Positions 2,378 through 20,336 of a stretch of 64,000 nt of DNA are shown one piece after another. Position numbers and translations under genes: made by a program. The stretch is from Flavobacteriaceae bacterium LYZ1037 (lineage in GTDB: Bacteria > Bacteroidota > Bacteroidia > Flavobacteriales > Flavobacteriaceae): the NCBI GenBank assembly GCA_003144015.1, contig QFWS01000001.1, forward strand, positions 62,001 through 126,000, given 5' to 3'. The notes under the pieces were generated by a model. The model searched no databases, had not been told where the DNA came from, and was given only the letters and a program-made list of their open reading frames with translations. Each line of letters starts with the position of its first letter. Position 1 is the first letter of the stretch.

Positions 2378-2947
2378 TTGAAACCCGAAACACGAAAAGA
2401 CGAAATTATAAAAACAGCAGCCAAACTTTTTAAAGAAAAAGGCTACAGCGCTGTCACCATGAGAGATATTGCGGCTGCAATGGGGATGAAAGCAGCTAGT
2501 TTGTATAACCACATAAATTCCAAACAAGAAATTCTTAAAGAAATCATTATTTCTCTAGCTGAAGAGTTTACCAATGAAATGGAGCTAATTAAAGAATCCA
2601 ATAATTCTTGTATTGAAAAATTAAAACAAATTGTTGAGTTGCATATTACTATTACAAGTCAGAACACTTTCGGAATGGCTTCACTTAATAGTGATTGGAT
2701 GCATCTGGAAGAACAATTAGATTATTATTTAAAATTGCGTATTAATTATGAAGAGAATTTTAGAAGTGTATTAAGTTCAGGAATATTAAATAAAGAAATA
2801 TCTAATAAAAATACAGAAGTCATATTATTTTCAATGCTTTCTACGCTACGTTCCTTATATATTTGGATTCCTAGTAAAGAGGATATTAATATTAAGAAAC
2901 TAAGTGAACAATTAAGTGATATTCTCATTAACGGAATTAACAAATAG
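2378..2947 (+). CDS. TetR-family regulator, probable PaaR-type repressor
   Basis: A 189-residue protein with an N-terminal TetR HTH (about 8-55; RKDEIIKTAAKLFKEKGYSA, then MRDIAAAMGMKAASLYNHI) and a helical ligand domain. The start is TTG: an in-frame stop lies three codons upstream, no ATG precedes the HTH, and the usual few residues before it are present only with TTG. It sits directly upstream of the paa genes in the same direction, and an 18-base perfect palindrome follows it at the paaE promoter. By analogy with TetR-type PaaR regulators, the inducer is probably phenylacetyl-CoA or another pathway CoA ester. That role is inferred from position, not from a diagnostic residue. Confidence 0.82.
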   Translation: MKPETRKDEIIKTAAKLFKEKGYSAVTMRDIAAAMGMKAASLYNHINSKQEILKEIIISLAEEFTNEMELIKESNNSCIEKLKQIVELHITITSQNTFGMASLNSDWMHLEEQLDYYLKLRINYEENFRSVLSSGILNKEISNKNTEVILFSMLSTLRSLYIWIPSKEDINIKKLSEQLSDILINGINK

Positions 2948-2963
2948 TTTAGAAATTATTTTG

Positions 2964-2971
2964 TAAATTTG
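2964..2971 (+). promoter_or_regulatory. -7 promoter element of the paa operon
   Basis: TAAATTTG is an exact match to the Bacteroidota -7 consensus TAnnTTTG. It lies 43 bases before the paaE ATG, and transcription would start around 2975-2978, just before the palindromic operator. No convincing -33 TTTG is seen at the ideal distance. Confidence 0.6.
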
Positions 2972-2978
2972 TAACCCT

Positions 2979-2996
2979 AACTAACAAGTGTTAGTT
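2979..2996. promoter_or_regulatory. Palindromic operator AACTAACA-AG-TGTTAGTT
   Basis: A perfect inverted repeat with 8-base arms and a 2-base spacer begins about 8 bases after the -7 element and ends 18 bases before the paaE ATG. Its size and symmetry suit a TetR-family dimer, and the position over the start of transcription suits repression. The most likely ligand is the TetR protein encoded immediately upstream. I found no second full copy in the window. Confidence 0.72.
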
Positions 2997-3014
2997 GTAT
3001 ATTTAAAATTTCAT

Positions 3015-4088
3015 ATGGCAGATTTTTATAACTTAAAAGTTGCAGATATATATAAGGAAACTAAAGATACAGTGGTTATATCTTTTGATATTCCAGAGAA
3101 CTTAAAAGAGAAATTTAAGTTTAAACAAGGGCAACATCTTACCCTTCGTAAAGAAATAAACGGACAAGATATTCGTCGTAACTACTCGTTATGTTCCAGC
3201 CCTTTTGATAATAAATGGAAAGTAGCAGTTAAGACCATTCGTCAAGGAGTGTTTTCTAATTATGCTTTTAACGAATTAAAAAGAGGAGACGAGTTACAGG
3301 TTATGCCTCCACATGGTGAATTTTATGTGGAATGTAATCCAGAATCTACTAATAATTATATAGCATTTGCAGCTGGTAGTGGTATAACACCTATGTTGTC
3401 CATTATTAAAACACACCTACATCAAGAGCCAAATAGTACGTTTAAGTTGTTTTACTTGAATCGTACTGTTAAATCCATTATCTTTAAAGAAGAGATAGAA
3501 CAACTTAAAAATGAGTTTTTTGAGCGTTTTCAGGTTTTTTACTTTTTAACAAAGGAACAACGCGATATCCCATTTTTAAATGGTCGTTTTGATAAAGAAA
3601 AATTAGCTGTTTTAACCAAGACTTTTATCGATATTCCAGATACAAATCACGCGTTTATTTGCGGTCCACAAGACATGATTTTTCTAATTCGAGACGAATT
3701 GCAAGCGGCTGGATTAGATAAAGAAAAGATACATTACGAATTGTTTTTCTCTGGAAGCTCCGAAGAAGAAAATAAACACATTGCTGAAGTTCTTGAAGAA
3801 AAAGCAGATGGAACAGAAGTAACTATTATCGATGGTGGAAAAGAATTTCATTTCATCATGGACGACGATTTCGATAACATCTTAGATGGTGCCTTAGCAG
3901 CAGGAGCCGATTTGCCTTTTGCGTGTAAAGGTGGTGTTTGTAGTACCTGTAAATGTCAGGTGGTTGAGGGGTCAGTAAAAATGAAAGTAAATTATGCACT
4001 CGAAGAAAAAGAAGTAGCACAAAATTATGTGTTAAGCTGCCAGGCTGTACCAACGAGTAAAGTAGTTAAAGTAGATTTTGACGTATAA
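3015..4088 (+). CDS. paaE: Phenylacetyl-CoA epoxidase reductase subunit PaaE
   Basis: A 357-residue flavo-iron-sulfur reductase that passes electrons from NADPH to the PaaABC oxygenase. An FAD-binding domain ([12 protein letters not shown]) is followed by an NAD(P)-binding domain ([25 protein letters not shown]) and a C-terminal plant-type 2Fe-2S ferredoxin domain with cysteines in [12 protein letters not shown] and LSCQA. The ATG at 3015 ([13 protein letters not shown]) is preferred over an in-frame GTG at 2988, which would lie inside the operator. Length matches E. coli PaaE. It is the first gene of the operon here, whereas in E. coli it follows paaD. Confidence 0.96.
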
Positions 4089-4104
4089 AATAAACTCAAA
4101 AATT

Positions 4105-5061
4105 ATGAGTGAAGAACAAATAAAAAACTTAGAAGCTCAATTTGAAGCACGTATTGCTCGTGACGAAAAAATTGAAGCTAAAGATTGGATGCCTGAAAAG
4201 TATCGTAAGACACATATCAGACAAATGTCTCAGCATGCACATTCTGAAATAGTAGGGATGCTTCCAGAAGGTAACTGGATCACTAGAGCACCTTCGTTAC
4301 GAAGAAAAGTAGCTCTGTTAGCAAAAGTTCAAGATGAAGCAGGTCACGGATTATACCTGTATTCTGCATGCGAAACCTTAGGGATTTCACGTGATGAACT
4401 ATATGAACAATTACATTCTGGTAAGGCGAAGTACTCAAGTATTTTTAACTATCCAACCGTAACTTGGGCAGATATGGGAGCCATTGGTTGGTTAGTAGAT
4501 GGAGCAGCTATTATTAATCAAGTGCCTTTGTGTAACACCTCCTATGGACCTTACGCTAGAGCCATGGTTCGTGTGTGTAAAGAGGAAAGTTTTCACCAAC
4601 GTCAAGGTTATGAAATCATGATTAAGTTAGCAAACGGAACTCCAGAGCAAAAAGAAATGGCTCAAGATGCTTTAAACCGTTGGTGGTGGCCAAGTTTAAT
4701 GATGCTTGGTCCTACAGATGCTGAATCTATTCATACAGAACAATCCATGAAATGGAAATTAAAGCGAAAATCTAACGACGATTTACGTCAGCAATTTATA
4801 GATCAAACAGTGCCACAAGCAGATTTAATCGGTTTAACCATTCCTGATCCAGATTTAAAATGGAATGAAGAAAAGGGAAGTTACGATTTTGGAGATATCG
4901 ATTGGGATGAATTTTGGCAAGTCGTTAAAGGTCATGGACCATGTAATAAAGAACGAATGAATGCCAGAGTTGGTGCATGGGAACGAGGAGAATGGGTTCG
5001 TGATGCAGCTATGGCACATGCCGAAAAACAACAACAAAGAAAAGAAAAACAAGCAGTATAG
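4105..5061 (+). CDS. paaA: Phenylacetyl-CoA epoxidase catalytic subunit PaaA
   Basis: A 318-residue ferritin-like di-iron protein, the oxygenase subunit that epoxidises the ring of phenylacetyl-CoA to the 1,2-epoxide. Recognisable PaaA stretches include [36 protein letters not shown] and [15 protein letters not shown], which hold the glutamate and histidine iron ligands. The ATG at 4105 ([10 protein letters not shown]) is preferred over an in-frame upstream start at 4078, which would run back into the end of paaE. Length is close to E. coli PaaA (309). It works with PaaC as a heterodimeric core, with PaaB as a bridging subunit. Confidence 0.97.
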
Positions 5062-5069
5062 AAACTTTT

Positions 5070-5118
5070 GTCAGTTCGAGTGAAATTGTTTTTTAAGCAA
5101 TTTTGTATCGAGAACAAG
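5070..5118 (+). repeat. Intergenic repeat, family A, single unit
   Basis: The paaA-paaB gap holds a unit that starts GTCAGTTCGAGTGAAATTG and ends in TTTTGTATCGAGAACAAG, with a small internal stem pairing AAATTG with CAATTT. Nearly the same unit recurs at 8032-8079 and, in head-to-head pairs, at 15689-15785 and 17105-17204. Confidence 0.85.
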
Positions 5119-5139
5119 ATGAATAAATAAAATAATATC

Positions 5140-5427: not shown

Positions 5428-5441
5428 TACATCTTTGATTT

Positions 5442-5509
5442 GTCATCCTTAGCTTATTCAGGAACTCATCAATAATAAGAAAGCCATTCAGAGTGCAACG
5501 AAGAATTTC
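5442..5509 (+). repeat. Intergenic repeats, family B then family C
   Basis: The 100-base paaB-paaC gap contains two short modules. The first (5442-5469, GTCATCCTTAGC followed by TTCAGGAACTCAT) resembles the family B unit at 8093-8121. The second (5483-5509, GCCATTCAGAGTG followed by AACGAAGAATTTC) resembles a segment inside the E2 gene at 16073-16100. Both look like flavobacterial intergenic repeats. Confidence 0.7.
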
Positions 5510-5527: not shown

Positions 5528-6283
5528 ATGAAAAACGAAAATTTATATAATTACATTCTAGGCATCGCAGATAATTCTTTAATTCTTGGACAAAGATTAG
5601 GAGAGTTAACTGGTCATGGACCAAGTTTGGAAACCGATATTGCCTGCACAAATATTTCATTAGATTTATTCGGTCAGGTACGTAGTTATTATCAATATGC
5701 CGCTAAAATAGCTGGAGATAACAGAACGGAAGATGATATTGCCATGCTTCGTAAAGAACGCGAGTACGTTAATGTGTTGCTTGTAGAGCAGCCAAATACA
5801 GATTTTGCATACACAATGACACGTCAGTTTTTGTTTGATGTGTATCATTTGTTGTATTTACAGGAACTACAAAAAAGTACAGATTTAACCTTATCAGCAA
5901 TAGCTGCTAAGTCAATGAAAGAGGTGAGTTATCATCAACGATTTTCATCAGATTGGATGAAACGTTTAGGTGATGGTACCAAGGAAAGCAATCAAAAAAT
6001 GCAAAACGCTATTGATGATTTATGGAGATACACAGATGAATTATTTCATCAAACCGAAGCTGATATAGCGATGGTTAAAGAAGGAATAGGTGTAGATGTA
6101 ACCGCTTTAAAAGAAAAATATCATCAAATTGTAACGAGTATTCTTGAAGAGTCAACCTTAACAATTCCTGAGTCTAAATATTTTCAAAAGGGAGGAAAGC
6201 TAGGGATTCATACAGAACATATGGGTTATATATTAACGGAATTACAGTACATGCAACGTACCTATCCAAATATGGAATGGTAA
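5528..6283 (+). CDS. paaC: Phenylacetyl-CoA epoxidase structural subunit PaaC
   Basis: A 251-residue ferritin-like protein, close in length to E. coli PaaC (248). It starts NENLYNYILGIADNSLILGQ and contains LGELTGHGPSLETDIACTNI and FLFDVYHLLYLQEL, characteristic of the non-catalytic partner of PaaA. PaaC forms the heterodimer with PaaA and contributes to substrate binding. It follows paaB after a repeat-containing gap and precedes paaD by 100 bases that also contain a repeat. Confidence 0.96.
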   Translation: MKNENLYNYILGIADNSLILGQRLGELTGHGPSLETDIACTNISLDLFGQVRSYYQYAAKIAGDNRTEDDIAMLRKEREYVNVLLVEQPNTDFAYTMTRQFLFDVYHLLYLQELQKSTDLTLSAIAAKSMKEVSYHQRFSSDWMKRLGDGTKESNQKMQNAIDDLWRYTDELFHQTEADIAMVKEGIGVDVTALKEKYHQIVTSILEESTLTIPESKYFQKGGKLGIHTEHMGYILTELQYMQRTYPNMEW

Positions 6284-6383: not shown

Positions 6384-6884
6384 ATGATAGCAGAAAAACA
6401 ACATATCGATCAAATTCTAATTCCAATTCTGGAGCAAGTTTCAGATCCGGAAATTCCAGTATTGTCTATTATGGATATGGGAGTTGTACGTTCGGCTGTT
6501 ATTGAAAATAATTATGTAAAAGTTCAAATTACACCAACATATAGTGGTTGTCCCGCAATGGATGTCATTGGTGATGATATTAAAGCGGCCTTAAAAGAAG
6601 CAGGATACAGTTCAGAAATTGAATTAATTCTAGCTCCAGCTTGGACAACCGATTGGATTACGCCAAGAGGTAGAAAAGCTCTGGAAGATTATGGTATTGC
6701 AGCCCCTTTAGATGCAGAAGCTGATAAAGAGGCACTTTTAGGGAATAAGAAATTAGTGAAATGTACCAATTGTGGTTCAACAAACACACGATTAGTAAGT
6801 CAGTTTGGTTCAACAGCATGCAAAGCACAATTTCAGTGTAATGATTGTCAAGAACCCTTTGATTATTTTAAATGTCTTAAATAA
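6384..6884 (+). CDS. paaD: Phenylacetate-CoA oxygenase assembly factor PaaD
   Basis: A 166-residue protein with an N-terminal MIP18/DUF59 domain (about 10-105; PVLSIMDMGVV, PTYSGCPAMDVI) and a C-terminal zinc ribbon with two CxxC pairs (KCTNCGS and QCNDC) near residues 130-160. Proteins of this type assist iron-sulfur or metal-centre maturation, and PaaD is required for an active epoxidase. Length matches E. coli PaaD (165). Its TAA overlaps the ATG of the next gene by one base, a sign of translational coupling. Confidence 0.94.
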   Translation: MIAEKQHIDQILIPILEQVSDPEIPVLSIMDMGVVRSAVIENNYVKVQITPTYSGCPAMDVIGDDIKAALKEAGYSSEIELILAPAWTTDWITPRGRKALEDYGIAAPLDAEADKEALLGNKKLVKCTNCGSTNTRLVSQFGSTACKAQFQCNDCQEPFDYFKCLK

Positions 6885-7246
6885 TGTTAGGATTAAGAAC
6901 AACCATATATAAAGTCAATAATTTATCAGAAGCAAAAGCTTGGTATGTAAAAGCATTCAAAATCGAGCCTTATTTTGATGAATCTTTTTATGTTGGGTTT
7001 AATATTCAAGGCTACGAATTAGGATTGCTTCCTGAGGAAGAGCAAATTCAAAAAGGAGAAAATATACTATCATATTGGGGAGTTGAAGATATTCAAAAAA
7101 CCTATGAACATCTATTAAATTTGGGAGCCACTAAACATGAAGAACCAAATAATGTAGGAGGCGAACTCATGGTTGCTAGTGTCTTCGATCCTTGGAATAA
7201 CATCATTGGCATTATTTATAACCCTTATTTTAAATTACCAGAATAA
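6884..7246 (+). CDS. VOC/glyoxalase-fold protein in the paa operon
   Basis: A 120-residue single VOC domain (LGLRTTIYKVNNLSEAKAWYVKAF, ending FDPWNNIIGIIYNPYF) of the glyoxalase/bleomycin-resistance superfamily. The family includes isomerases, dioxygenases and binding proteins, so the fold alone does not give a reaction. It is not part of the E. coli paa set. It is joined to paaD by an ATGA-type one-base overlap and followed by paaG one base later, so it is firmly embedded in the operon. A role handling a reactive epoxide or aldehyde intermediate is a guess from position. Confidence 0.85.
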   Translation: MLGLRTTIYKVNNLSEAKAWYVKAFKIEPYFDESFYVGFNIQGYELGLLPEEEQIQKGENILSYWGVEDIQKTYEHLLNLGATKHEEPNNVGGELMVASVFDPWNNIIGIIYNPYFKLPE

Positions 7247-7247
7247 T

Positions 7248-8027
7248 ATGAGTTCAATAGAACTAAAAATAGAAAATAAAGTAGCATATATCACACTTAA
7301 CAGACCAGAAGTGTTTAATAGTTTTAATCGTGAAATGGCATTTTTACTTCACGATACATTAGATGCATGTGAAAAAAATGATGATGTTAGAGCCATAGTA
7401 TTAACAGGAAATGGAAAAGCATTCTGTGCTGGTCAGGACTTAAAAGAAGTAACAGATCCAGAATTAAACCCAGGATTTAAAAAAATATTGGAAGAGCATT
7501 ATAATCCAATAATCACACGAATTAGAAATATTAAAAAACCAATTATTGGAGCCGTTAATGGTGTTGCTGCAGGAGCAGGAGCTAATATTGCTTTAGCATG
7601 CGATATTGTAGTTGCACATGAAAAAGTGAGCTTCATTCAAGCTTTTAGTTTAATAGGTTTAGTTCCAGATAGTGCAGGAACGTTCTTCTTGCCTAGACTT
7701 ATCGGATTCCAAAAAGCATTAGCATTAGCCATGTTAGGAGATAAAATAGGTGCTGAAGAAGCCGAAAAAATGGGAATGATTTATAAGGTTATTCCATTAG
7801 AAAGTTTTGAAGAAGATGTCAATAAACTAGCTATAAAATTGGCAAACATGCCAACAAAAGCATTAGGAATGATTAAAGAGTTATTTAATCAATCCATGAC
7901 AAATGATCTAGAAGCACAATTAGCTTTAGAATCTAAATTACAAATAGAAGCAGCACAAAGTGAAGATTATGCCGAAGGTGTAGCTGCATTTATTGAAAAA
8001 CGTAAGCCAAATTTTAAAGGGAATTAA
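7248..8027 (+). CDS. paaG: Ring 1,2-epoxyphenylacetyl-CoA isomerase PaaG
   Basis: A 259-residue crotonase-fold enzyme expected to isomerise the ring epoxide to oxepin-CoA. The oxyanion-hole segment is AFCAGQDLKEV. The position of the first hydratase glutamate holds Asn (GAGANIALACD), while the aspartate in GLVPDSAG, used by PaaG-type isomerases, is present. This pattern favours isomerase over hydratase. The ATG at 7248 (MSSIELKIENKVAYITLNRP) is right at the family start; an in-frame start at 7173 would overlap the VOC gene. Length matches E. coli PaaG (262). Confidence 0.92.
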   Translation: MSSIELKIENKVAYITLNRPEVFNSFNREMAFLLHDTLDACEKNDDVRAIVLTGNGKAFCAGQDLKEVTDPELNPGFKKILEEHYNPIITRIRNIKKPIIGAVNGVAAGAGANIALACDIVVAHEKVSFIQAFSLIGLVPDSAGTFFLPRLIGFQKALALAMLGDKIGAEEAEKMGMIYKVIPLESFEEDVNKLAIKLANMPTKALGMIKELFNQSMTNDLEAQLALESKLQIEAAQSEDYAEGVAAFIEKRKPNFKGN

Positions 8028-8031: not shown

Positions 8032-8079
8032 GTCAGTTCGAGTGAAATTGCTTTTTAGCAATTTTGTATCGAGAACAAG
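8032..8079 (+). repeat. Intergenic repeat, family A, single unit
   Basis: In the paaG-paaH gap, a unit starting GTCAGTTCGAGTGAAATTG and ending TTTTGTATCGAGAACAAG. It is almost identical to the unit at 5070-5118, including the small stem formed by AAATTG and CAATTT. Confidence 0.87.
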
Positions 8080-8138: not shown

Positions 8139-9293
8139 ATGAACGTAGGAATTATCGGTTCTGGAACCATGGGAAGTGGCATCGCACAAGTAGCTGCAAC
8201 TTCTGGTTGCAAAGTGAAACTATACGACACCAATCAAGCAGCACTGGATAAAGCAAAAACAACTTTAGAAAAAATATTAGCACGTCTAGTTGAAAAAGGA
8301 CGAATTGATGAGGTCGAAAAAGCAAGAATTCAAAGTAACATTTCTTATGTAGATACTTTAAAAGATTTAGCAGATTCAAATCTAACAATCGAAGCCATCA
8401 TTGAAAATATTGAGATAAAGAAAAAAGTATTTTCAGAATTAGAAAGCTATGTAGCTGATGATTGTGTCATTGCATCAAACACCTCTAGTTTGTCAATAGC
8501 CTCTATTGCTTCTTCATTACAAAAACCAGAACGTTGTATCGGAATCCATTTTTTCAATCCAGCTCCTTTAATGAAGCTGGTTGAGGTTATTCCTGCGATT
8601 CAAACATCAAAAGAAGTTCTTGATAAATCAGTAAATATAATTTCAGATTGGAAGAAAGTGGTTGCTGTAGCAAAAGATACTCCTGGCTTTATTGTCAATC
8701 GTGTTGCTAGACCATTTTACGGAGAAGCTTTACGAATTTATGAAGAAGGTTTTGCCGATTTCGCAACGATTGATCATAGTTTAAAAACTTTAGGAGGTTT
8801 CAGAATGGGGCCATTCGAACTTATGGATTTTATAGGAAACGACGTCAATTACACAGTCACAGAAACGGTGTTTACGGCTTTCTATTTCGATCCAAGATAT
8901 AAACCAGCATTTACTCAGAAACGTTTTGCTGAAGCAGGTTACTTAGGACGTAAATCTGGAAAAGGATATTATGATTATTCTGAAGGAGCAAAACTACTAC
9001 AACCAAAGGAAGATAAAGATTTAGCTCAAAAAATATTTGATCGTGTTTTAGTGATGCTCATCAACGAAGCAGCAGATGCCTTATTTTTAAACATCGCATC
9101 AGCTGAAGATATCGACAATGCCATGACTAAAGGTGTTAACTATCCAAAAGGATTATTGGCTTGGGCAGACGAAAAAGGGATTGATTGGTGTGTTTCAAAA
9201 TTAGACGAGTTATATAATGAATATCATGAAGATAGATATCGTTGTAGTCCATTATTGCGTAAAATGAATAGAGAAAATAAAACCTTTTTTTAA
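8139..9293 (+). CDS. paaH: 3-hydroxyadipyl-CoA dehydrogenase PaaH
   Basis: A 384-residue 3-hydroxyacyl-CoA dehydrogenase that would oxidise 3-hydroxyadipyl-CoA with NAD. The Rossmann domain starts VGIIGSGTMGSGIAQVAA; IASNTSSLSI and IGIHFFNPAPLMKLVEV are family signatures holding the catalytic histidine, followed by DTPGFIVNRV. Two C-terminal helical domains follow, the second shorter than in E. coli PaaH (475 residues). It follows paaG after a gap with two repeat units, and its TAA directly abuts the ATG of paaI. Confidence 0.93.
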   Translation: MNVGIIGSGTMGSGIAQVAATSGCKVKLYDTNQAALDKAKTTLEKILARLVEKGRIDEVEKARIQSNISYVDTLKDLADSNLTIEAIIENIEIKKKVFSELESYVADDCVIASNTSSLSIASIASSLQKPERCIGIHFFNPAPLMKLVEVIPAIQTSKEVLDKSVNIISDWKKVVAVAKDTPGFIVNRVARPFYGEALRIYEEGFADFATIDHSLKTLGGFRMGPFELMDFIGNDVNYTVTETVFTAFYFDPRYKPAFTQKRFAEAGYLGRKSGKGYYDYSEGAKLLQPKEDKDLAQKIFDRVLVMLINEAADALFLNIASAEDIDNAMTKGVNYPKGLLAWADEKGIDWCVSKLDELYNEYHEDRYRCSPLLRKMNRENKTFF

Positions 9294-9701
9294 ATGAAAG
9301 GCGAACAAATTCCATATAAGATGTTAAGTCAAGATGCTTACAGCACTTGGTTAGGTATTGAGATTCTTGAATGCGAAATTGGACGATGTAAAGTTGGATT
9401 GACCATTAGAAAGGAAATGCTAAACAGTATGAACAAAGCTCATGGAGGCATTAGCTATTCTTTAGCAGATACAGCTTTCGGTTTTGCTGCTAATACTCAT
9501 GGCAAATATGCCGTTTCCATTGAAACTAGTATCAATCATATAGAAGCATTAAATGAAGGAGATTATATCGTGGCAGAATCAGTCATTGAAAATGTGAAAA
9601 ACAAATTAGGCTTCAATATTATTGAAGTTAAAAGAGATGAAGAACTTGTCGCTTTATTTAAAGGCGTGGTTTATAGAACAAATAAAGATTGGCTAGAATA
9701 A
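9294..9701 (+). CDS. paaI: Hotdog-fold acyl-CoA thioesterase PaaI
   Basis: A 135-residue hotdog thioesterase close in length to E. coli PaaI (140). The segment NSMNKAHGGISYSLADTAFG contains the conserved HGG and the catalytic aspartate of the family. PaaI is thought to hydrolyse dead-end aryl-CoA and epoxide-derived CoA esters, rescuing CoA when the pathway stalls. The ATG follows the paaH stop with no gap, which indicates coupled translation. Confidence 0.92.
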   Translation: MKGEQIPYKMLSQDAYSTWLGIEILECEIGRCKVGLTIRKEMLNSMNKAHGGISYSLADTAFGFAANTHGKYAVSIETSINHIEALNEGDYIVAESVIENVKNKLGFNIIEVKRDEELVALFKGVVYRTNKDWLE

Positions 9702-9725: not shown

Positions 9726-10586
9726 ATGAAATGGCAAGGTAGAAGAAAAAGCGATAATTTAGAAGATCGAAGAGGTATGGGCTCAAAAGGAAAGCTTGTA
9801 GCTGGTGGAGGCTTAATAGCAGTTGTAGTAATACTTTTACAACTTTTTGGAGGTGAAACTGGACAACAAATAGCGCCAATCATTGAGCAAATGAATCAAG
9901 GTCAGAGTACACAACAAGTTCAACAGAGGGAACTCTCAGATCAAGAAAAAGAAGTGGGAGACTTTGTGGCTACTGTTTTAGCAGATACTGAAGATGTTTG
10001 GAATCAGGTTTTTCGTGAAAATAACCTTGGAAATTACAAAGAGCCAACTATGGTGTTATTTACAAATGCAGTTTCTACGGCCTGTGGAAATGCTAGTTCT
10101 GCCTCAGGACCATTTTATTGTCCAGGAGATCAAAAATTATATATGGATTTAACGTTTTTTGAAGAGCTAAAAACACGTTTTGGTGCTCAAGGTGGCGATT
10201 TCGCAATCGCTTACGTAACAGCACACGAGATTGGCCATCACATTCAAACCATATTAGGAACCTCACAAAAAGTGAGGCAATTACAACAACAAACAAATAA
10301 AGTAGAAGCCAATAAACTTTCTGTAGCACAGGAGCTTCAGGCAGATTTTTATGCAGGTGTTTGGGCACATCATAATCAGAAGTATTTAGAAGCTGGTGAC
10401 GTTGAAGAAGCCTTAAGTGCCGCTAATGCTGTTGGAGATGATGCCATTCAAAGACGCGTTCAAGGAGACGTTAGACCTGACAGTTTCACTCATGGAACTT
10501 CAGAGCAACGTATGGAGTGGTTTATGAAAGGGTATAACTCAGGAGATATCAGACAGGGAGATACGTTTTCTGCAATTTTAAATTAG
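9726..10586 (+). CDS. Neutral zinc metallopeptidase (YpfJ-like)
   Basis: A 286-residue protein of the putative neutral zinc metallopeptidase family. It has a polar basic N-terminus, a membrane segment (about residues 19-39; LVAGGGLIAVVVILLQLFGG) and a catalytic domain with CGNASSASGPFYCPGD, the HExxH motif in TAHEIGHHIQT and the downstream ligand region AQELQADFYAGVWAHH. It would be anchored in the inner membrane with the catalytic part outside. It lies between paaI and paaJ, 24 and 11 bases from its neighbours, so it is in the operon although it has no known place in phenylacetate catabolism. Confidence 0.93.
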   Translation: MKWQGRRKSDNLEDRRGMGSKGKLVAGGGLIAVVVILLQLFGGETGQQIAPIIEQMNQGQSTQQVQQRELSDQEKEVGDFVATVLADTEDVWNQVFRENNLGNYKEPTMVLFTNAVSTACGNASSASGPFYCPGDQKLYMDLTFFEELKTRFGAQGGDFAIAYVTAHEIGHHIQTILGTSQKVRQLQQQTNKVEANKLSVAQELQADFYAGVWAHHNQKYLEAGDVEEALSAANAVGDDAIQRRVQGDVRPDSFTHGTSEQRMEWFMKGYNSGDIRQGDTFSAILN

Positions 10587-10597: not shown

Positions 10598-11806
10598 ATG
10601 AAAGAAGCATATATTATTGATGGTGTTAGAACACCAATAGGAAATTATCAAGGCACATTGTCAGCTGTTAGAACAGATGATTTAGCAGCTTTAGTAATTA
10701 AAGAAATTGTAAAACGAAATCCAAATATCCCAAGCGATGCTTACGATGATGTAATTTTGGGATGTGCCAATCAAGCTGGCGAAGATAATCGGAACGTGGC
10801 TAGAATGGCTTCGCTTTTAGCTGGTTTGCCTTTTAGTGTTCCAGGAGAAACCGTTAATCGCTTATGTAGCTCGGGATTATCGGCAATTATTCATGCCAAT
10901 AGAGCTATAAAAGCTGGAGATGGAGACGTGTTTATTTCAGGCGGTGTAGAAAATATGACACGTGGGCCATACGTAATTGCGAAACCTTCAAAAGGATTTG
11001 GAACGGATGCTAAAATGTACGATTCAAGTTTTGGATGGCGATTTATCAATCCGAAAATGGAAAAAATGTATGGTACTGATGGGATGGGACAAACAGCTGA
11101 AAATCTCGTTGAGAAATACAATATCTCTCGTGAAGATCAAGATAAATTTGCCTATTGGAGCCAAATGAAAGCTGCCAAAGCACAAGAAAATGGTCGTTTA
11201 GCAAAAGAAATTATTACGGTTGAGATTCCCCAACGTAAAAAAGACCCAATACAATTTTCAAAAGATGAGTTTGTAAAACCTACAACATCGTTAGAGGTTC
11301 TTGCTAAATTAAGAGGTGCCTTTAAAGCAGAAGGTGGAAGCGTGACTGCAGGTAACTCTTCAGGATTAAACGATGGAGCAGCAGTAACCATTATTGCTTC
11401 TGAAGATGCTGTAAAAAAATACAATCTAAAACCCTTAGCTAGAATAGTAAGTTCAGCTGTTGTTGGTGTCGAGCCAAGAATTATGGGGATTGGTCCTGTA
11501 GAAGCCTCAAATAAAGCTTTAGAAAAAGCAGGTTTGACCATGGACGATATGGATGTTATCGAATTAAATGAAGCTTTTGCGGCACAAGCTTTGGCTTGCA
11601 CAAGAGCTTGGGGTTTGGAAGATAACGACCCGAGATTAAACCCTAATGGAGGTGCCATCGCTATTGGTCATCCACTTGGCGTTACAGGTGCTAGAACTAC
11701 ATATTCTGCAGCTTTAGAACTGAAAGAACAAAATAAACGTTATGCTTTGGTTACCATGTGTATTGGAGTCGGTCAAGGTTATGCTGCAATAATTGAAAGA
11801 GTTTAA
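10598..11806 (+). CDS. paaJ: 3-oxoadipyl-CoA / 3-oxo-5,6-didehydrosuberyl-CoA thiolase PaaJ
   Basis: A 402-residue thiolase matching E. coli PaaJ (401) and PcaF in length. It shows the nucleophilic cysteine in NRLCSSGLSAI, the oxyanion segment NEAFAAQALAC, the histidine in GGAIAIGHPLGVTGAR and the second cysteine in MCIGVGQG. In the pathway it cleaves the ring-derived didehydrosuberyl-CoA and later 3-oxoadipyl-CoA, giving acetyl-CoA and succinyl-CoA. The start segment EAYIIDGVRTPIGNYQG is typical of the beta-ketoadipyl branch. It precedes paaZ by two bases. Confidence 0.94.
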   Translation: MKEAYIIDGVRTPIGNYQGTLSAVRTDDLAALVIKEIVKRNPNIPSDAYDDVILGCANQAGEDNRNVARMASLLAGLPFSVPGETVNRLCSSGLSAIIHANRAIKAGDGDVFISGGVENMTRGPYVIAKPSKGFGTDAKMYDSSFGWRFINPKMEKMYGTDGMGQTAENLVEKYNISREDQDKFAYWSQMKAAKAQENGRLAKEIITVEIPQRKKDPIQFSKDEFVKPTTSLEVLAKLRGAFKAEGGSVTAGNSSGLNDGAAVTIIASEDAVKKYNLKPLARIVSSAVVGVEPRIMGIGPVEASNKALEKAGLTMDDMDVIELNEAFAAQALACTRAWGLEDNDPRLNPNGGAIAIGHPLGVTGARTTYSAALELKEQNKRYALVTMCIGVGQGYAAIIERV

Positions 11807-14333: not shown

Positions 14334-15086
14334 ATGAGTGACCCATATGTTAAGTTGAAAATAAATAATGAAGTGGGATATATTGAGTTTTTTCATCCTG
14401 CTCATAATTCCTTGCCTGGAGATTTATTAGCAAAATTAGCGCAAACTATTACAGATGCTGGAAAAAACAATGCTATTAAAGTCATTGTTCTTAAAAGTGG
14501 TAAAGACAGAACGTTTTGTGCTGGAGCCAGTTTTAAAGAATTGATTAATATTAATGATGAAGCTACTGGAAAAGTGTTCTTTTCTGGTTTTGCAAATGTT
14601 ATTAATGCCATGCGTAAATGTCCGAAATTCATTATTGGACGCATTCAAGGAAAGACCGTTGGAGGAGGTGTTGGTTTAGCTGCTTCAACCGATTATTGTA
14701 TGGCAACAAAATTTGCTGCCATCAAGTTAAGCGAATTAAATGTTGGAATTGGACCTTTTGTAGTTGGCCCTGCCATAGAACGTAAAATTGGATTGACAGG
14801 TATGTCACAAATAGCTATCGATGCGAATACGTTTTATTCAGCAGAATGGGCAAAACAAAAAGGGTTGTTTACACAAGTTTACGACACAACTGAAGCATTA
14901 GATGAAGCAGTAAAAGAGTTTGCTGAAAACTTATGCTCATATAATGTTGAAGCCATGAAAGAAATGAAAGCCATTTTTTGGCAAGGAACAGAAGACTGGG
15001 GCTCATTACTAGCCGAACGTGCAGCTATAAGTGGTCGCTTGGTGTTAAGTGAGTTTACAAAGGAAAAATTAAAGGGTTTTAAATAA
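14334..15086 (+). CDS. Enoyl-CoA hydratase/isomerase family protein, PaaF-like
   Basis: A 250-residue crotonase-fold protein placed where paaF is expected, so hydration of 2,3-dehydroadipyl-CoA is the likely role. The oxyanion segment is TFCAGASFKEL. The first catalytic glutamate of classical hydratases is replaced by Gly (GGGVGLAASTDY), while the second is kept in KLSELNVGIGP. That pattern is not fully PaaF-like and leaves room for another enoyl-CoA reaction, for instance in branched-chain amino acid breakdown, given the downstream genes. Its stop overlaps the paaY start by one base. Confidence 0.82.
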   Translation: MSDPYVKLKINNEVGYIEFFHPAHNSLPGDLLAKLAQTITDAGKNNAIKVIVLKSGKDRTFCAGASFKELININDEATGKVFFSGFANVINAMRKCPKFIIGRIQGKTVGGGVGLAASTDYCMATKFAAIKLSELNVGIGPFVVGPAIERKIGLTGMSQIAIDANTFYSAEWAKQKGLFTQVYDTTEALDEAVKEFAENLCSYNVEAMKEMKAIFWQGTEDWGSLLAERAAISGRLVLSEFTKEKLKGFK

Positions 15087-15682
15087 TGATTTACCGTTTT
15101 AAAAGCTACACACCAGTGGTTCACGAGTCTAGTTTTGTGCACCCCTTGGCAGCAGTAACAGGAAATGTCATCATAGGCAAAAACTGTTACATTGGCCCAG
15201 GTGCTGCTATTCGTGGCGATTGGGGACAAATCATTTTAGAAGATGGCGTTAATGTCCAAGAAAATTGTACGGTACATATGTTTCCAGGAAAATCCATCAC
15301 GCTTAAAGAAAGCGCTCATGTTGGCCATGGAGCGATTATTCATGGTGCAAATCTGGGTAGAAATTGCCTGATTGGAATGAATACAGTTATCATGGACGAT
15401 GCTGAAATTGGTGATGAAAGTATTGTAGGAGCCATGGCATTTGTGAAAGCAGAAACTAAAATTCCTAAAAGAAGTTTAGTCGTTGGGAATCCGGCAAAGA
15501 TTATTAAAGAAGTAAGTGATGACATGATTGCATGGAAAACAAAAGGCACACAATTGTACCAACAATTACCAGCTGATTGTCATGAGAGTTTAAAAGAAGT
15601 TGAACCTTTAAGAGAGGTTCCAGAGAATATGAAAATACAAGAAGATGTTTATAAAACACTTCGTGATTTTATGAAAAAATAA
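15086..15682 (+). CDS. paaY: PaaY, gamma-carbonic-anhydrase-fold thioesterase
   Basis: A 198-residue left-handed beta-helix protein close in length to E. coli PaaY (196). Hexapeptide repeats run from about residue 15 to 150, with metal-binding histidines in CTVHMFPGKS and AHVGHGAIIHGA. PaaY belongs to the gamma-carbonic anhydrase family but has been reported to act as a thioesterase that detoxifies pathway CoA intermediates. The ATG overlaps the upstream TAA by one base, so it is coupled to the hydratase gene. Confidence 0.92.
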   Translation: MIYRFKSYTPVVHESSFVHPLAAVTGNVIIGKNCYIGPGAAIRGDWGQIILEDGVNVQENCTVHMFPGKSITLKESAHVGHGAIIHGANLGRNCLIGMNTVIMDDAEIGDESIVGAMAFVKAETKIPKRSLVVGNPAKIIKEVSDDMIAWKTKGTQLYQQLPADCHESLKEVEPLREVPENMKIQEDVYKTLRDFMKK

Positions 15683-15688: not shown

Positions 15689-15785
15689 CGTCACTTCGAG
15701 TGATCTCGATTTTTTTCGAGATTGTATCGAGAAGTAAAAAAGTTCTCGATACAAAATTGCAAAATGCAATTTCACTCGAACCGAC
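15689..15785. repeat. Head-to-head pair of family A repeats before the E2 gene
   Basis: A unit beginning CGTCACTTCGAGTG runs forward to TATCGAGAAG, then a second unit runs in reverse from GTTCTCGATAC to CACTCGAACCGACG. The roughly 45-base arms form a large imperfect inverted repeat, and each arm has its own small stem (ATCTCGA/TCGAGAT and AAATTGC/GCAATTT). It fills almost the whole gap between paaY and the E2 gene and could also act as a terminator or RNA-stability element. Confidence 0.85.
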
Positions 15786-15802: not shown

Positions 15803-17104
15803 ATGTCGAAATTCGAATTAAGAATGCCCAAAATGGGTGAAAGTATTACAGAGGGAACAATTATCAATTGGTTGATTTCTGAAGGAGATTCTTTTGAAGA
15901 AGGAGATATCATCCTAGAAGTCGCAACCGATAAAGTAGATAATGAAGTTCCTGCACCAGCTTCAGGAACATTGGTAAAAACCATGTTCCAGGCTAAAGAT
16001 GTTGTACCTGTAGGTGAAGTAATTGCAGTACTTGAGATTTCAGAAGAATTAAAATCTTCAAAAAAAGACACTGTCATTCAGAGCGAAAGCGAAGAATCTC
16101 AACGAAAGAAGAAGGTATCAAAAAGATTGAAACCAGCCTCAGAATCTTTAACCTCGAATTCATTTTCGGTTTCAAATTCCAACACTTTCTTTTCACCATT
16201 AATCATCAAAATAGCAAAAGAGTACCATATTAGTTTTGAAGAATTAGCCCGAATTCCTGCAACAGGTAATGAAGGCCGATTACGTAAAAGTGATGTGTTT
16301 AATTATATTGAAGAAGGCAGACCGTTTAAATTCGCACAACCAGTAACACAAGATCCAACAGCTTATAGAATTCCACAATTAAGTTTCGATAAAGGCAAGG
16401 GGAAGGTGATTGAGATGGACAGAATGCGTCAAATGATTGCTGATCATATGGTGTATTCAAAACACACATCACCTCATGTGACTGCCTATGTGGAAGCTGA
16501 TCTTACAAATATGGTAAACTGGCGAAATGCCAATAAAAAAGCCTTTCAGGAAAAACATGGAGAGCGTTTAACATTCACACCTTTATTTGTAGAAGCGGTT
16601 GCAAAAGCCGTTAAGGATTTTCCTAATATCAATGCCTCTGTTGATGGTAATAACATTATTGTAAAAGAAGATATAAATATAGGTATGGCAACAGCTTTAC
16701 CTAGTGGTAACTTAATCGTTCCTGTTGTGAGAAATGCAGATGCCAAAGATTTGAAATCTTTAGCTGCAAATGTTAATGAATTAGCTAATAAAGCTAGAGA
16801 GAATAAACTGGGAGGTGACGATATAAAAGGAAGCACCTTCACAATATCAAATGTAGGAACCTTTGGAAGCGTTATGGGAACACCCATCATCAATCAACCA
16901 GAAGTAGCCATTTTAGCTTTGGGAATTATTAAAAAAAGACCTGAAGTAATTACAACTGAAAAAGGAGATGAAATTGCTATTAGAAGTATGATGTATTTAT
17001 CCTTGTCCTTTGACCACCGAGTGGTTGATGGCTTTTTAGGAGGAAGTTTTGTGAGACGTGTAGCTGATTATTTCGAGCAGTTCGATATCAATAGAAAAAT
17101 ATAA
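15803..17104 (+). CDS. 2-oxoacid dehydrogenase E2 (dihydrolipoamide acyltransferase)
   Basis: A 433-residue E2 core protein. An N-terminal lipoyl domain (1-78) has the lipoylation lysine in EVATDKVDNEV (Lys44). A peripheral-subunit-binding domain follows at about 130-170 (PATGNEGRLRKSDVFNYI), then the acyltransferase domain with the catalytic motif SFDHRVVDGF. The linker (80-130) is Ser/Lys-rich and its DNA resembles the local intergenic repeats at 16073-16100 and 16152-16180. With the E1 gene two places downstream it should form a 2-oxoacid dehydrogenase complex. The substrate (branched-chain or aromatic 2-oxoacids) cannot be fixed from sequence. No E3 gene is in the window. Confidence 0.92.
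   Translation: MSKFELRMPKMGESITEGTIINWLISEGDSFEEGDIILEVATDKVDNEVPAPASGTLVKTMFQAKDVVPVGEVIAVLEISEELKSSKKDTVIQSESEESQRKKKVSKRLKPASESLTSNSFSVSNSNTFFSPLIIKIAKEYHISFEELARIPATGNEGRLRKSDVFNYIEEGRPFKFAQPVTQDPTAYRIPQLSFDKGKGKVIEMDRMRQMIADHMVYSKHTSPHVTAYVEADLTNMVNWRNANKKAFQEKHGERLTFTPLFVEAVAKAVKDFPNINASVDGNNIIVKEDINIGMATALPSGNLIVPVVRNADAKDLKSLAANVNELANKARENKLGGDDIKGSTFTISNVGTFGSVMGTPIINQPEVAILALGIIKKRPEVITTEKGDEIAIRSMMYLSLSFDHRVVDGFLGGSFVRRVADYFEQFDINRKI
16073..16180 (+). repeat. Repeat-derived segments inside the E2 linker
   Basis: Within the E2 coding sequence, 16073-16100 reads GTCATTCAGAGCG followed by AAAGCGAAGAATCTC, matching the family C intergenic module at 5483-5509 apart from small differences. 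The segment 16152-16180 (core AATTCATTTTC, then TTTCAAATTC) matches 6345-6369 at about 20 of 25 positions. Both fall in the unstructured linker, residues 91-126, and are read in frame. Confidence 0.65.
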
Positions 17105-17204
17105 CGTCACTTCGAGTAATATGTGAAGCACGAGCAAATTGTATCGAGAAGTTTCAAAAGTTCTCGATACAAAATTGTAAAAAGCAAATTCACACGAACT
17201 GACG
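17105..17204. repeat. Head-to-head pair of family A repeats after the E2 gene
   Basis: The gap between E2 and the aminotransferase gene holds a second composite: CGTCACTTCGAGTAATATG to TATCGAGAAG, then GTTCTCGATAC to CACACGAACTGACG in reverse. It has the same orientation and architecture as 15689-15785, so the E2 gene is bracketed by two like elements. Confidence 0.85.
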
Positions 17205-17217
17205 TAAAGATAAAATT

Positions 17218-18285
17218 ATGAAGCAAAACATTTTAATTACCAAAGTAGAAAAATCAAAAGTTGAAAACATCGATTTCAACAACATTCCATTAGGAACCAC
17301 ATTTACAGACCACATGTTTATTTGCGATTATGAACATGGTCAATGGACAAATCCAAGAATAGAACCATTAGCATTCATTCCTACACATCCAGCAGCTATG
17401 GCTTTACATTATGGACAAGCCATTTTTGAAGGGATGAAAGCGACTGTAGATGCCAATGGGAACCCGATGTTATTTAGAGCAAATAAAAATGCAGCACGAT
17501 TAAATTTCAGTGCAGATAGAATGGGAATGCCTCATTTTCCTGAAGATTTATTTGTAGTAGGTTTGAAGCAGTTAGTAGATTTAGAACGAAGTTGGATTCC
17601 TCCAACAGATGGAAGCGCATTGTATTTAAGACCTTTTATGTATGCAGATGAACCTTTTATTGGGATGCGAGCAGCAACCCATTATAAGTTTATTATTATG
17701 GCATCGCCAGCTGGTCCTTTTTTTAGTAAACGTATCAAGCTTTGGGCAGAAAAGCAATATATACGAGCAGCTAATGGAGGTACAGGAGAAGCAAAAGCAG
17801 CTGGAAATTATGCAGCAGCAATTCGTCCTACTGAATTAGCAAAAGCTAAAGGTTATGATCAGGTTTTATGGTTAGATGCTGTAGAACATAAGTATATCCA
17901 AGAAGTTGGAACTATGAATATTTTCTTTAAAATAGATGGTAAATTTATCACACCAAAACGCGATGGTTCTATTTTAGATGGTATCACACGAATGAGTGTT
18001 ATTGATATTTTAAAAGATAAAGGATATGAAGTTATTGAACGTGCCATCACAATCGATGAGGTTATTGAAGCTTCAAAAAACAACACTTTAGAAGAAGCCT
18101 TTGGAACTGGAACGGCTGTTGGGATTGCTTATATTCAAAATATTGGATTAGAAGGAGAAACCATTCATGTATCTGATGAAAGTCCTGTTGGATTAGAAGT
18201 GAATAATACTTTAAATGATATTAAAACAGGTAGAGTTGAGGACACATTCAATTGGATGACTAAGGTTAAAAAAGAGTTAGTTTAA
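17218..18285 (+). CDS. ilvE: Branched-chain-type aminotransferase (PLP fold type IV)
   Basis: A 355-residue aminotransferase of the branched-chain family. Landmarks are GQAIFEGMKATVDANGNPML, LYLRPFMYADEPFIG, the lysine-containing segment VEHKYIQEVGTMNIFF and the cofactor phosphate-binding region GTGTAVGIAYI. These enzymes interconvert branched-chain amino acids and 2-oxoacids, and some accept aromatic amino acids. It sits between the E2 and E1 genes of a 2-oxoacid dehydrogenase, and its TAA overlaps the E1 ATG. It therefore probably supplies the oxoacid to that complex rather than serving biosynthesis only. Confidence 0.92.
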   Translation: MKQNILITKVEKSKVENIDFNNIPLGTTFTDHMFICDYEHGQWTNPRIEPLAFIPTHPAAMALHYGQAIFEGMKATVDANGNPMLFRANKNAARLNFSADRMGMPHFPEDLFVVGLKQLVDLERSWIPPTDGSALYLRPFMYADEPFIGMRAATHYKFIIMASPAGPFFSKRIKLWAEKQYIRAANGGTGEAKAAGNYAAAIRPTELAKAKGYDQVLWLDAVEHKYIQEVGTMNIFFKIDGKFITPKRDGSILDGITRMSVIDILKDKGYEVIERAITIDEVIEASKNNTLEEAFGTGTAVGIAYIQNIGLEGETIHVSDESPVGLEVNNTLNDIKTGRVEDTFNWMTKVKKELV

Positions 18286-20336
18286 TGAAAAAAGATATAT
18301 TAGAAAAAGGATTTTTAAAACTCTGTACAGCGAAAGCAATGGCAGAATTATACGAAGCTAATTTTAAGCAGGTTTCAAAATATGTGCATGCCACTTCAAG
18401 AGGTCATGAGGCTATTCAGATTGCATTAGGGATGCAATTATTACCTCAGGATTATGCGTTTCCATATTATCGAGACGATGCTATGTTACTTTCATTTGGT
18501 TTAGAGCCTTATGATTTAATGTTGCAATTATTAGCCAAAAAAAATGATCCGTTTTCTGGTGGTAGAACTTATTATTGTCATCCAAGTTTGAAGGATGCCG
18601 ATAAGCCAAAAATTCCACATCAATCATCTGCAACCGGTATGCAAGCCATTCCTGCTACAGGTGTTGCGATGGGCATGCAATACAAAGAACTACAAGGTTT
18701 AGATGATAAAACATTAAAGGATTTACCTTTAGTGGTTTGTTCCTTAGGGGATGCTTCTGTCACTGAAGGTGAGGTCTCCGAAGCTTTCCAAATGGCAGCT
18801 TTAAAGCAAATGCCAATTATATTCTTGGTACAGGATAATGGTTGGGATATTTCTGCTAATGCAGCTGAAACCAGAGCACAAGATGCTTTTGAGTATGCTA
18901 GAGGATTCAATGGTTTAGAAGCGATTTCTATAGATGGTGCCAACTTTACTGAAAGTTATGAAGCTGTTCAAAAAGTAATAGAAACCATAAGAAAAGAACG
19001 TCGTCCATTTTTAGTACACGCTAAAGTACCCTTATTAAATCACCACACTTCTGGAGTTAGAATGGAGTGGTATCGTGACGATTTAGAAGAAGCTAAATCA
19101 AGAGATCCTTACCCAGTTTTAAAGAAACAGTTATTAGATTATGGGTTTACTGAAAAAGAAGTTGAAAATATAGAAAAATCCGCAAGAGCTAAAGTGAAAT
19201 CAGATTTTGAAAAGGCTCTAAAAGCTGAAGATCCAAAACCTGAAGATTTATTTACAAACGATTTTGTTCCAACACCTATCACAGAAGAGCTAGGAGTTCG
19301 TTCTCCGGAAGGAGCAGAAAAAGTAGTCATGGTAGATTGTGCCTTGTTTGCTGTTGAAGAGCTCATGAAAAAGCACAAAGAGTGTTTGCTTTACGGACAA
19401 GATGTAGGAGGAAGACTTGGAGGCGTGTTTAGAGAAGCGGCCACTTTAGCACAAAAGTTTGGAGACGACAGAGTGTTTAATACACCCATCCAGGAAGCAT
19501 TTATTGTTGGCTCTACCGTTGGTATGAGTGCTGTTGGATTAAAACCCATTGTTGAGGTTCAGTTTGCAGATTATATATGGCCTGGATTAAATCAATTGTT
19601 TACTGAAGTTAGTAGAAGTTGTTATTTAAGTAATGGAAAGTGGCCAGTTAGTATGATACTTCGTGTTCCAATCGGAGCTTACGGAAGTGGAGGGCCTTAT
19701 CATTCGTCGTCTGTAGAAAGTGTGATTACCAATATTCGAGGTATTAAAATAGCGTATCCAAGTAATGGAGCCGATTTAAAAGGCCTGTTGAAAGCTGCTT
19801 ATTACGATCCAAACCCAGTTGTTATTTTAGAACATAAAGGTCTTTATTGGTCTAAAGTTCCTGGAACGCAAGGAGCAACTTCGGTTGAACCAGGAGAAGA
19901 TTATGTATTGCCTTTTGGTAAAGCATGGGTGTTACAAGAGATTTGGAAACAAGAAGATGTTGAGACCATTACTATAATTTCTTATGGAATGGGAGTGCAT
20001 TGGGCTATGAATGCTTCAGAAGAACTCGGAATGAAAGATCAAATTGAAGTGATTGATTTACGAACCTTATGTCCTTTAGATGAAGAAACGATTATGAAAT
20101 CGGTTAAGAAAACTGGAAAATGTTTAGTGGTAACAGAAGAGCCAAGCAACAATAGTTTTGCTAGAGCTTTGGCAGGAAAAATTCAAGAAGTATGCTTTAA
20201 ATATTTGGATGCCCCAGTAACGACAATTGGTAGTGAAAATATGCCAGCAATTCCATTAAATGCCACTTTAGAACAAACGATGATACCTTCAACTGAAAAA
20301 GTAAAATCAAAGATTGAAATGGTTCTAAAGTATTAA
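18285..20336 (+). CDS. 2-oxoacid dehydrogenase E1, fused alpha and beta subunits
   Basis: A 683-residue fusion of thiamine-diphosphate-dependent E1 alpha (about 1-325) and beta (about 345-683). The alpha half carries SRGHEAIQIALG, the ThDP site GDASVTEGEVSEAFQ with DNGWDIS, and HHTSGVRMEWYRD. The beta half carries GQDVGGRLGGVFREA, NTPIQEAFIVGSTVGM and PIGAYGSGGPYHS. Such fusions are common in Bacteroidota and are usually annotated as branched-chain or general 2-oxoacid dehydrogenase. It decarboxylates a 2-oxoacid and passes the acyl group to the E2 lipoyl domain. One-base overlap with the aminotransferase gene shows coupling. It closes the long catabolic cluster. Confidence 0.93.
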   Translation: MKKDILEKGFLKLCTAKAMAELYEANFKQVSKYVHATSRGHEAIQIALGMQLLPQDYAFPYYRDDAMLLSFGLEPYDLMLQLLAKKNDPFSGGRTYYCHPSLKDADKPKIPHQSSATGMQAIPATGVAMGMQYKELQGLDDKTLKDLPLVVCSLGDASVTEGEVSEAFQMAALKQMPIIFLVQDNGWDISANAAETRAQDAFEYARGFNGLEAISIDGANFTESYEAVQKVIETIRKERRPFLVHAKVPLLNHHTSGVRMEWYRDDLEEAKSRDPYPVLKKQLLDYGFTEKEVENIEKSARAKVKSDFEKALKAEDPKPEDLFTNDFVPTPITEELGVRSPEGAEKVVMVDCALFAVEELMKKHKECLLYGQDVGGRLGGVFREAATLAQKFGDDRVFNTPIQEAFIVGSTVGMSAVGLKPIVEVQFADYIWPGLNQLFTEVSRSCYLSNGKWPVSMILRVPIGAYGSGGPYHSSSVESVITNIRGIKIAYPSNGADLKGLLKAAYYDPNPVVILEHKGLYWSKVPGTQGATSVEPGEDYVLPFGKAWVLQEIWKQEDVETITIISYGMGVHWAMNASEELGMKDQIEVIDLRTLCPLDEETIMKSVKKTGKCLVVTEEPSNNSFARALAGKIQEVCFKYLDAPVTTIGSENMPAIPLNATLEQTMIPSTEKVKSKIEMVLKY

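Follow-up and report, generated by a model that had tools for sequence, protein, structure and literature searches.

The stretch of DNA analysed here (64 kb; hereafter the window) comes from Flavobacteriaceae bacterium LYZ1037 (assembly GCA_003144015.1, contig QFWS01000001.1, positions 62,001–126,000 of the forward strand), whose genome of 3.19 Mb is 99.89% complete. Positions 2378–20336 hold, on the + strand throughout, a gene for a TetR-family regulator, the genes of a Paa (phenylacetyl-coenzyme A, or phenylacetyl-CoA, epoxidase) pathway and then those for the E2 component of a 2-oxoacid dehydrogenase complex, a class IV aminotransferase and a fused E1 component (Table 1). Profile matches, all on that strand, confirmed the one-directional run of paa genes into E2, aminotransferase and fused E1 that the original prediction had described. 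The matches of PaaE, PaaA, PaaC, PaaD, PaaJ, PaaZ and the aminotransferase were above their NCBIfam cut-offs, and PaaA, PaaC, PaaD and PaaE together with PaaZ and PaaJ, all by curated models, identify the Paa pathway; PaaG, PaaH, PaaI and PaaY scored under their own equivalog cut-offs and carry the names of their best matches, PaaH being above a subfamily cut-off. The domains of a 2-oxoacid dehydrogenase complex were found as well, namely the alpha and beta domains of E1 and, in E2, the lipoyl domain with its lysine, the E3-binding domain and the catalytic domain with its histidine. No E3 was recognised within the cluster, and no genome-wide E3 search was made. Genes of the window past 24.3 kb are known as open reading frames (ORFs) only.

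The canonical Paa pathway of Escherichia coli, which has PaaABCDE, PaaG, PaaH, PaaI, PaaJ, PaaZ and PaaY in common with the window, differs from it in being entered through PaaK, a ligase dependent on adenosine triphosphate (ATP). As originally predicted, no paaK was found in the window, nor is one recognisable in the rest of the genome, where the best match to the PaaK model TIGR02155 reached 160.5 bits as against a cut-off of 646.3 bits and as against 555–591 bits for the PaaK-like proteins of relatives. That cut-off was passed by none of the 199 genomes (198 genera) of the family set and by none of the 296 genomes of the phylum set, of which the class Bacteroidia is one part, and a working line of ~550 bits was used. 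PaaK-like proteins of 555–591 bits are present in four family genomes (G022, G089, G093 and G102 in our numbering), all of them PaaA-positive; their gene lies within the paa cluster in G093 and just past E1, at the end of the cluster, in G102.

The distribution of the fused E1 follows that of the epoxidase. With the window E1 as query, two clearly distinct groups were obtained, i.e. orthologues of 72–93% identity in 71 of the 199 family genomes, and a paralogue of ~32–35% identity that is also found in the own genome (up to five best candidates per genome were scored in this search and in the phylum-set search for PaaK, and up to three in the phylum-set search for E1). PaaA was found in 73 family genomes, the window-type E1 in 71, both in 69 and neither in 124 (Fisher p 7e-46, with kinship ignored), so that the two occur together in 69 of the 75 genomes having either; this bears out the expected conservation of the cluster over Flavobacteriaceae. 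Four genomes have PaaA without E1, three of them (G089, G112 and G161) being 64–82% complete and the fourth (G105) having a paa cluster that meets a contig end, and two have E1 without PaaA (G048 and G158, 82 and 87% complete), the E1 of G158 adjoining paaY, E2 and the aminotransferase. Where both are present, they lie 11.8–29.1 kb apart on one contig in 63 of the 69 genomes, a grouping far beyond chance. Among the Bacteroidia of the phylum set, PaaA and an E1 reaching 57% identity are found in the identical 27 genomes, 21 of which are without PaaK at E 1e-90; 22 of the 27, all outside the own family, carry the two genes on separate contigs or at a distance of more than 600 kb.

At least 80 named loci around E1 orthologues were scanned, many of the stretches stopping at contig ends; they belong to Formosa, Winogradskyella, Psychroserpens, Bizionia, Aquimarina, Kordia, Dokdonia, some Flavobacterium and others. 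Among the 80 listed, paaZ or paaY accompanies E1 in 67, E2 in 71 and the cluster aminotransferase in 50, and paaK was seen in none within the stretches covered. Another arrangement linking E1 to the epoxidase genes occurs in the genome of an uncultured Aureispira (L295), where E1 immediately precedes paaE and paaA.

The relatives of the window E1 among solved structures are mostly branched-chain E1s (Thermus, Pseudomonas, human), with pyruvate E1s further off; as a test of substrate this search placed E1 near the branched-chain E1s without telling its substrate. The domains, their order and the candidate catalytic residues are shared with the branched-chain E1s of Thermus (1um9) and human (1dtw), and in an alignment of 13 diverse orthologues the candidate positions, e.g. 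H99, D156, N185, H253 and H473, whose catalytic roles are our assumption, are invariant. The window E1 differs from both structures in being an alpha-beta fusion and in having their F, M and DD-containing loop replaced by KYVH, GR.YY.HP and HHTSGVR, respectively; in the alignment with the Thermus enzyme, V stands for F66 and Y for M128. Thermus, human and three outgroup E1s all have F at the position of the V, M or L at that of the first Y, and a DD-containing loop, the outgroup E1s (L082–L084) retaining F, GRQ(M/L) and HSSSDD. The motif KYVH..(S/A)(R/K)GHE was found in 54 of 55 orthologues and the other two in 55 of 55, the exception (L079, not in the tree) missing KYVH only; none of the three was found in any other row compared. 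None of these 55 orthologues carries the canonical motifs of a branched-chain 2-oxoacid dehydrogenase. In the evolutionary tree, a 100/100 branch separates 54 paa-type E1s from the rest, where two paralogues have very long branches.

The aminotransferase is likewise present in two types. A housekeeping type (41–47% identity to the window copy) was found in all 31 family genomes examined, the own genome included, and the cluster type (at least 62% identity) in 17 of the 22 PaaA-positive and none of the nine PaaA-negative ones. Since the cluster type is missing in five of the 22 (G130, G168, G010, G022 and G105, the cluster being interrupted by a contig end in one of them), the module can do without it; the cluster copy is therefore optional in the route originally predicted, and the own genome has a second branched-chain-type copy elsewhere. 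In a small comparison, all 17 cluster-type sequences have L at residue 25, whereas all 12 housekeeping ones and one intermediate have F. The position corresponds in the alignment to an F of mycobacterial IlvE, which we take to be equivalent to Phe30 of yeast Bat2. The latter lies within 5 Å of the substrate (PMC9275217; this and the other papers given by PMC number are cited from excerpts). Judged from these alignments, the changes in the E1 pocket and at residue 25 would both make room for a ring.

Upstream of paaE, a perfect palindrome, ACTAACAAGTGTTAGT, has the form CNAACGNNCGTTNG that was reported as the operator of PaaR (TTHA0973) in Thermus thermophilus (PMC6651687). The window thus holds both the gene and the site of a PaaR regulon, that is a TetR gene beside paa and an operator of this form, and the regulator, a relative of which adjoins paaE or paaA in many related genomes, appears to be PaaR-like, its binding to the palindrome being putative. 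A search with the Thermus-type pattern AACGNNCGTT was uninformative, the palindrome before paaE emerging from the same scan. The strict pattern RCTAACRNNYGTTAGY was then scanned in 61 hand-picked genomes and gave 56 matches, as against 12 for a reversed-pattern control: it occurs in 27 of 27 PaaA-positive and 0 of 12 PaaA-negative family genomes, in five of six genomes of another family (f2) and in nine of 16 other Bacteroidia. The own genome contains exactly one strict copy, the one before paaE. In all five genomes of the distant genus g200 of f2 (G210, G290, G399, G453 and G465), the sole strict copy starts 45–47 bp upstream of the ATG with which the unlinked E1 begins. When up to two mismatches were allowed, boxes were found before E2 in five of the 13 family clusters read that include E2, and before paaK in G022 (where it is unlinked), G399, G210 and G356; strict boxes precede an unlinked aminotransferase in G441 and G480. 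The Thermus thermophilus regulon, which has the TetR regulator and the operator in common with the window, includes the ligase (PMC6651687); the Bacteroidia differ in that, in several of their lineages, such boxes are also placed before E1, E2 or the aminotransferase. Two of the three boxes of G179 precede genes without a clear link. The genome of G441 has six strict boxes, and in it a perfect PaaR-type box (L206 4062; G441:C1:75061) lies 35 bp upstream of an ORF of 563 amino acids that presumably encodes a phosphoenolpyruvate carboxykinase, which it resembles.

From these data the following route can be proposed. A branched-chain-type aminotransferase, either the cluster copy or the general one, would convert phenylalanine to phenylpyruvate; the fused E1 with the cluster E2 and a general E3 would decarboxylate phenylpyruvate oxidatively to phenylacetyl-CoA, with formation of reduced nicotinamide adenine dinucleotide (NADH) and CO2; PaaABCDE and the remaining pathway would degrade phenylacetyl-CoA, and the PaaR-like TetR repressor would control the pathway, presumably being released by phenylacetyl-CoA. 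We infer the substrate, the E3 partner, the ligand of the repressor and the flux. The cluster probably encodes a form of the Paa pathway that is fed by phenylalanine through a dedicated dehydrogenase complex and does without PaaK. The central claim of the original prediction, the passage from phenylalanine through phenylpyruvate to phenylacetyl-CoA by E1 and E2, with phenylpyruvate as the presumed substrate, is supported by the lack of PaaK, the presence of a second E1 and a second branched-chain aminotransferase (BCAT), the conservation of the cluster and the fact that E1 tracks PaaA.

Several observations, given here together with the alternatives that they favour, weigh against this reading. 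The window has no box before E2 or E1, and since none precedes E2, shared control would need read-through from upstream. A box stands near the unlinked E1 in only six of the 22 Bacteroidia, five of which are of one genus and the sixth, G441, has one mismatch. At E 1e-90, 58 of the 64 phylum genomes with PaaK have no PaaA, and six of the 27 Bacteroidia carry PaaK as well as E1. That F66 and M128 of the Thermus enzyme are pocket residues is our assumption.

It is unlikely, in our judgement, that E1, E2 and the aminotransferase are instead a catabolic branched-chain 2-oxoacid dehydrogenase system for leucine, isoleucine and valine that shares PaaR within a general amino-acid regulon. The strongest evidence for this comes from family f4, where strict boxes precede a short-chain acyl-CoA dehydrogenase (G286, G441 and G480) and an acetyl-CoA thiolase (G441 and G340) and suit a wider amino-acid or short-chain acyl-CoA regulon. 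The fold of E1 and its best solved-structure matches, which are mostly branched-chain, agree with it, as does the aminotransferase, a BCAT by family. A urocanase gene on the opposite strand downstream of E1 (22221–24269), with a counterpart in 36 of the 80 named loci listed, suggests an amino-acid catabolism neighbourhood and also fits this alternative. Against it, E1 follows PaaA, while the leucine-catabolism marker 3-hydroxy-3-methylglutaryl-CoA (HMG-CoA) lyase is present in 184 of the 199 family genomes (68 of 71 E1-positive and 116 of 128 E1-negative ones), presence meaning matches to E 1e-40, mostly of ~190–210 bits among those listed, with one genome of 199 above the curated cut-off. Leucine catabolism therefore does not account for the distribution of E1, which tracks PaaA and not this marker over the 199 family genomes. 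In the orthologues compared, the pocket signature is also unlike that of branched-chain E1s, and the genome has both another BCAT and another E1. The second branched-chain dehydrogenase looked for elsewhere was found in so far as a second fused E1 (672 amino acids) is present; this protein, at most a candidate for the branched-chain enzyme, likewise lacks the canonical branched-chain motifs, and the finding slightly lowered our confidence in the phenylpyruvate route and raised that in the branched-chain alternative. Flavobacteriaceae generally make iso-branched fatty acids, for which a branched-chain complex is required in genomes with and without the window-type E1 alike; this, too, argues against a branched-chain role of the latter.

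It seems improbable that some other type of ligase (the weak PaaK homologue, a FadD-like enzyme or an ADP-forming synthetase) activates phenylacetate and that E1 and E2 are a side supply or unrelated. Weak PaaK homologues (143–196 bits) occur in 23 of the 73 PaaA-positive family genomes, and the own genome has one of 438 amino acids; the ligase searches covered the PaaK type, which leaves room for the ADP-forming and FadD types. In the phylum set beyond Bacteroidia, PaaA occurs in 73 genomes that lack both PaaK (E 1e-90) and an E1 reaching 57% identity, so a missing PaaK alone does not imply a window-type E1. On the other side, the weak homologue is also found in 18 of the 126 PaaA-negative family genomes, the own copy lies on a contig other than that of the paa cluster, and 48 of the 73 family genomes with PaaA lack, at the cut-offs used, a PaaK-like protein of 555–591 bits as well as a weak homologue. 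Least probable of all is a complex whose main substrate is a different aromatic 2-oxoacid (indolepyruvate or 4-hydroxyphenylpyruvate), or which uses several of them, phenylpyruvate being a minor substrate: the pocket signature fits a different, unspecified substrate and the PaaI-type thioesterase, of a family named for hydroxyphenylacetyl-CoA, could recycle hydroxyphenylacetyl-CoA from a promiscuous complex, but E1 tracks PaaA, and it is established that the Paa pathway is entered at phenylacetyl-CoA.

A broader form of the phenylpyruvate dehydrogenase reading can be put forward tentatively, with somewhat less than an even chance of holding as a whole. In this form, a phenylpyruvate dehydrogenase complex would be the original and general entry to Paa throughout the class Bacteroidia, as a route of phenylalanine degradation without free phenylacetate; PaaK would have come later in a few lineages, and the fused E1 would represent a new substrate class of 2-oxoacid dehydrogenases, recognisable by KYVH, GR.YY.HP and HHTSGVR.

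Reactions of this type are already known. The enzyme of a comparable route in Phaeobacter inhibens is said to be a ferredoxin-dependent oxidoreductase. That route leads from phenylalanine to phenylacetyl-CoA, likewise skipping free phenylacetate, and differs in having been studied for the supply of tropodithietic acid (PMC7497051). In Streptomyces pristinaespiralis, the pyruvate dehydrogenase-like PglB/PglC has been suggested to turn phenylpyruvate directly into phenylacetyl-CoA (PMC7089894), the reaction proposed here, the comparison with the window E1 being one of suggested function. PglB/PglC differs in serving secondary metabolism (phenylglycine) with separate alpha and beta subunits, and the Streptomyces paa operon competes with it for phenylacetyl-CoA (PMC7089894). 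A 2026 survey of Paa inspects the gene neighbourhoods of PaaK and states that the complete pathway is uncommon among Flavobacteriia (PMC13186573); as its excerpts describe the procedure, clusters without PaaK would escape it. Another Paa variant is the subject of the GapMind gap-filling paper, whose excerpted parts do not mention a PaaK-less dehydrogenase variant (PMC9007349). In the openly licensed PMC literature, no paper was found in which a 2-oxoacid dehydrogenase supplies Paa in Bacteroidota, nor one in which such a reaction is the dedicated entry to a PaaK-less catabolic Paa cluster across a bacterial class.

A search anchored on PaaK would overlook 69 of the 73 PaaA-positive family genomes. 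If the proposed route is true, these bacteria use Paa for the catabolism of an amino acid and spare the ATP of ligation; the pathway is then likely induced by phenylalanine and may be a protein-digesting rather than a pollutant-degrading route. The motifs would also provide a sequence signature for a phenylpyruvate-specific dehydrogenase, of use in annotation and in ligase-free production of phenylacetyl-CoA. Phenylalanine hydroxylase, which would stand for a competing route (PF00351, E 1e-15), was matched in 15 of the 199 family genomes, the own genome not being among them; the long forms scored ~58–64 bits, near that limit.

Table 1. Genes and sites of the paa cluster, with coordinates in the window and the matches on which the names are based.
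Feature	Position	Strand	Evidence
TetR-family regulator, PaaR-like	2378..2947	+	TetR match at family level only; PaaR identity inferred from operator
Palindrome ACTAACAAGTGTTAGT, putative PaaR operator	2980..2995	.	19 bp upstream of paaE ATG
paaE, epoxidase reductase	3015..4088	+	TIGR02160 425.8 bits, above cut-off; ORF listed from 2988, ATG at 3015 (checked in sequence)
paaA, epoxidase catalytic subunit	4078..5061	+	TIGR02156 533.9 bits, above cut-off
paaB, epoxidase subunit, 95 amino acids	5140..5427	+	read from sequence; presumed from position, without family search
paaC, epoxidase structural subunit	5528..6283	+	TIGR02158 279.9 bits, above cut-off
paaD	6384..6884	+	TIGR02159 179.5 bits, above cut-off
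Glyoxalase/dioxygenase-superfamily ORF	6884..7246	+	PF00903 28.3 bits
paaG-like isomerase	7248..8027	+	TIGR02280 307 bits, under cut-off 345
paaH-like 3-hydroxyacyl-CoA dehydrogenase	8139..9293	+	PRK08268 512.8 bits (above subfamily cut-off); TIGR02279 466 bits (under)
paaI-like hotdog thioesterase	9294..9701	+	TIGR02286 95.8 bits, under cut-off 118.9; TIGR00369 above cut-off
YpfJ-type zinc metallopeptidase, paaI-paaJ interval	9726..10586	+	
paaJ, 3-oxoadipyl-CoA thiolase	10598..11806	+	TIGR02430 602 bits, above cut-off
paaZ, bifunctional, 833 amino acids, C-terminal extension ~154 amino acids	11809..14310	+	TIGR02278 899 bits, above cut-off
Divergent enoyl-CoA hydratase/isomerase, paaF-like position	14334..15086	+	PF00378; no NCBIfam model above cut-off among matches listed
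paaY-like hexapeptide thioesterase	15086..15682	+	TIGR02287 240 bits, under cut-off 319.6
E2 dihydrolipoyl acyltransferase	15803..17104	+	PF00198, PF00364, PF02817; lipoyl DKV, catalytic HRVVDG
Class IV aminotransferase, paa-associated BCAT paralogue	17218..18285	+	TIGR01123 (ilvE_II) 330 bits, above cut-off
Fused E1 alpha-beta, 683 amino acids, proposed phenylpyruvate dehydrogenase component	18285..20336	+	PF00676, PF02779, PF02780

The TetR gene with its palindrome, the glyoxalase-like ORF, the YpfJ metallopeptidase and the C-terminal extension of PaaZ had gone unremarked in the original prediction. The metallopeptidase gene occupies the same place in some relatives and is missing in others. 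The PaaZ extension (13846–14307) was found in 70 of the 73 PaaZ proteins compared, the window included; it is absent in L140 and L291, and L096 is cut by a contig end. Its only Pfam match was DinB_2 at E 0.055, and its structural model (mean predicted local distance difference test score 88) is weakly like DinB/YfiT and mycothiol-transferase structures (best Foldseek E 0.04), with an invariant NHHF.QF. An intergenic repeat, CAGTTCGAGTGA ... TATCGAGAA ... TCTCGATACAA, occupies the cluster gaps 5072–5113, 8034–8074, 15692–15780 and 17105–17200; when five of its words were counted across the 64 kb, the only copies outside those gaps were two of TATCGAGAA.

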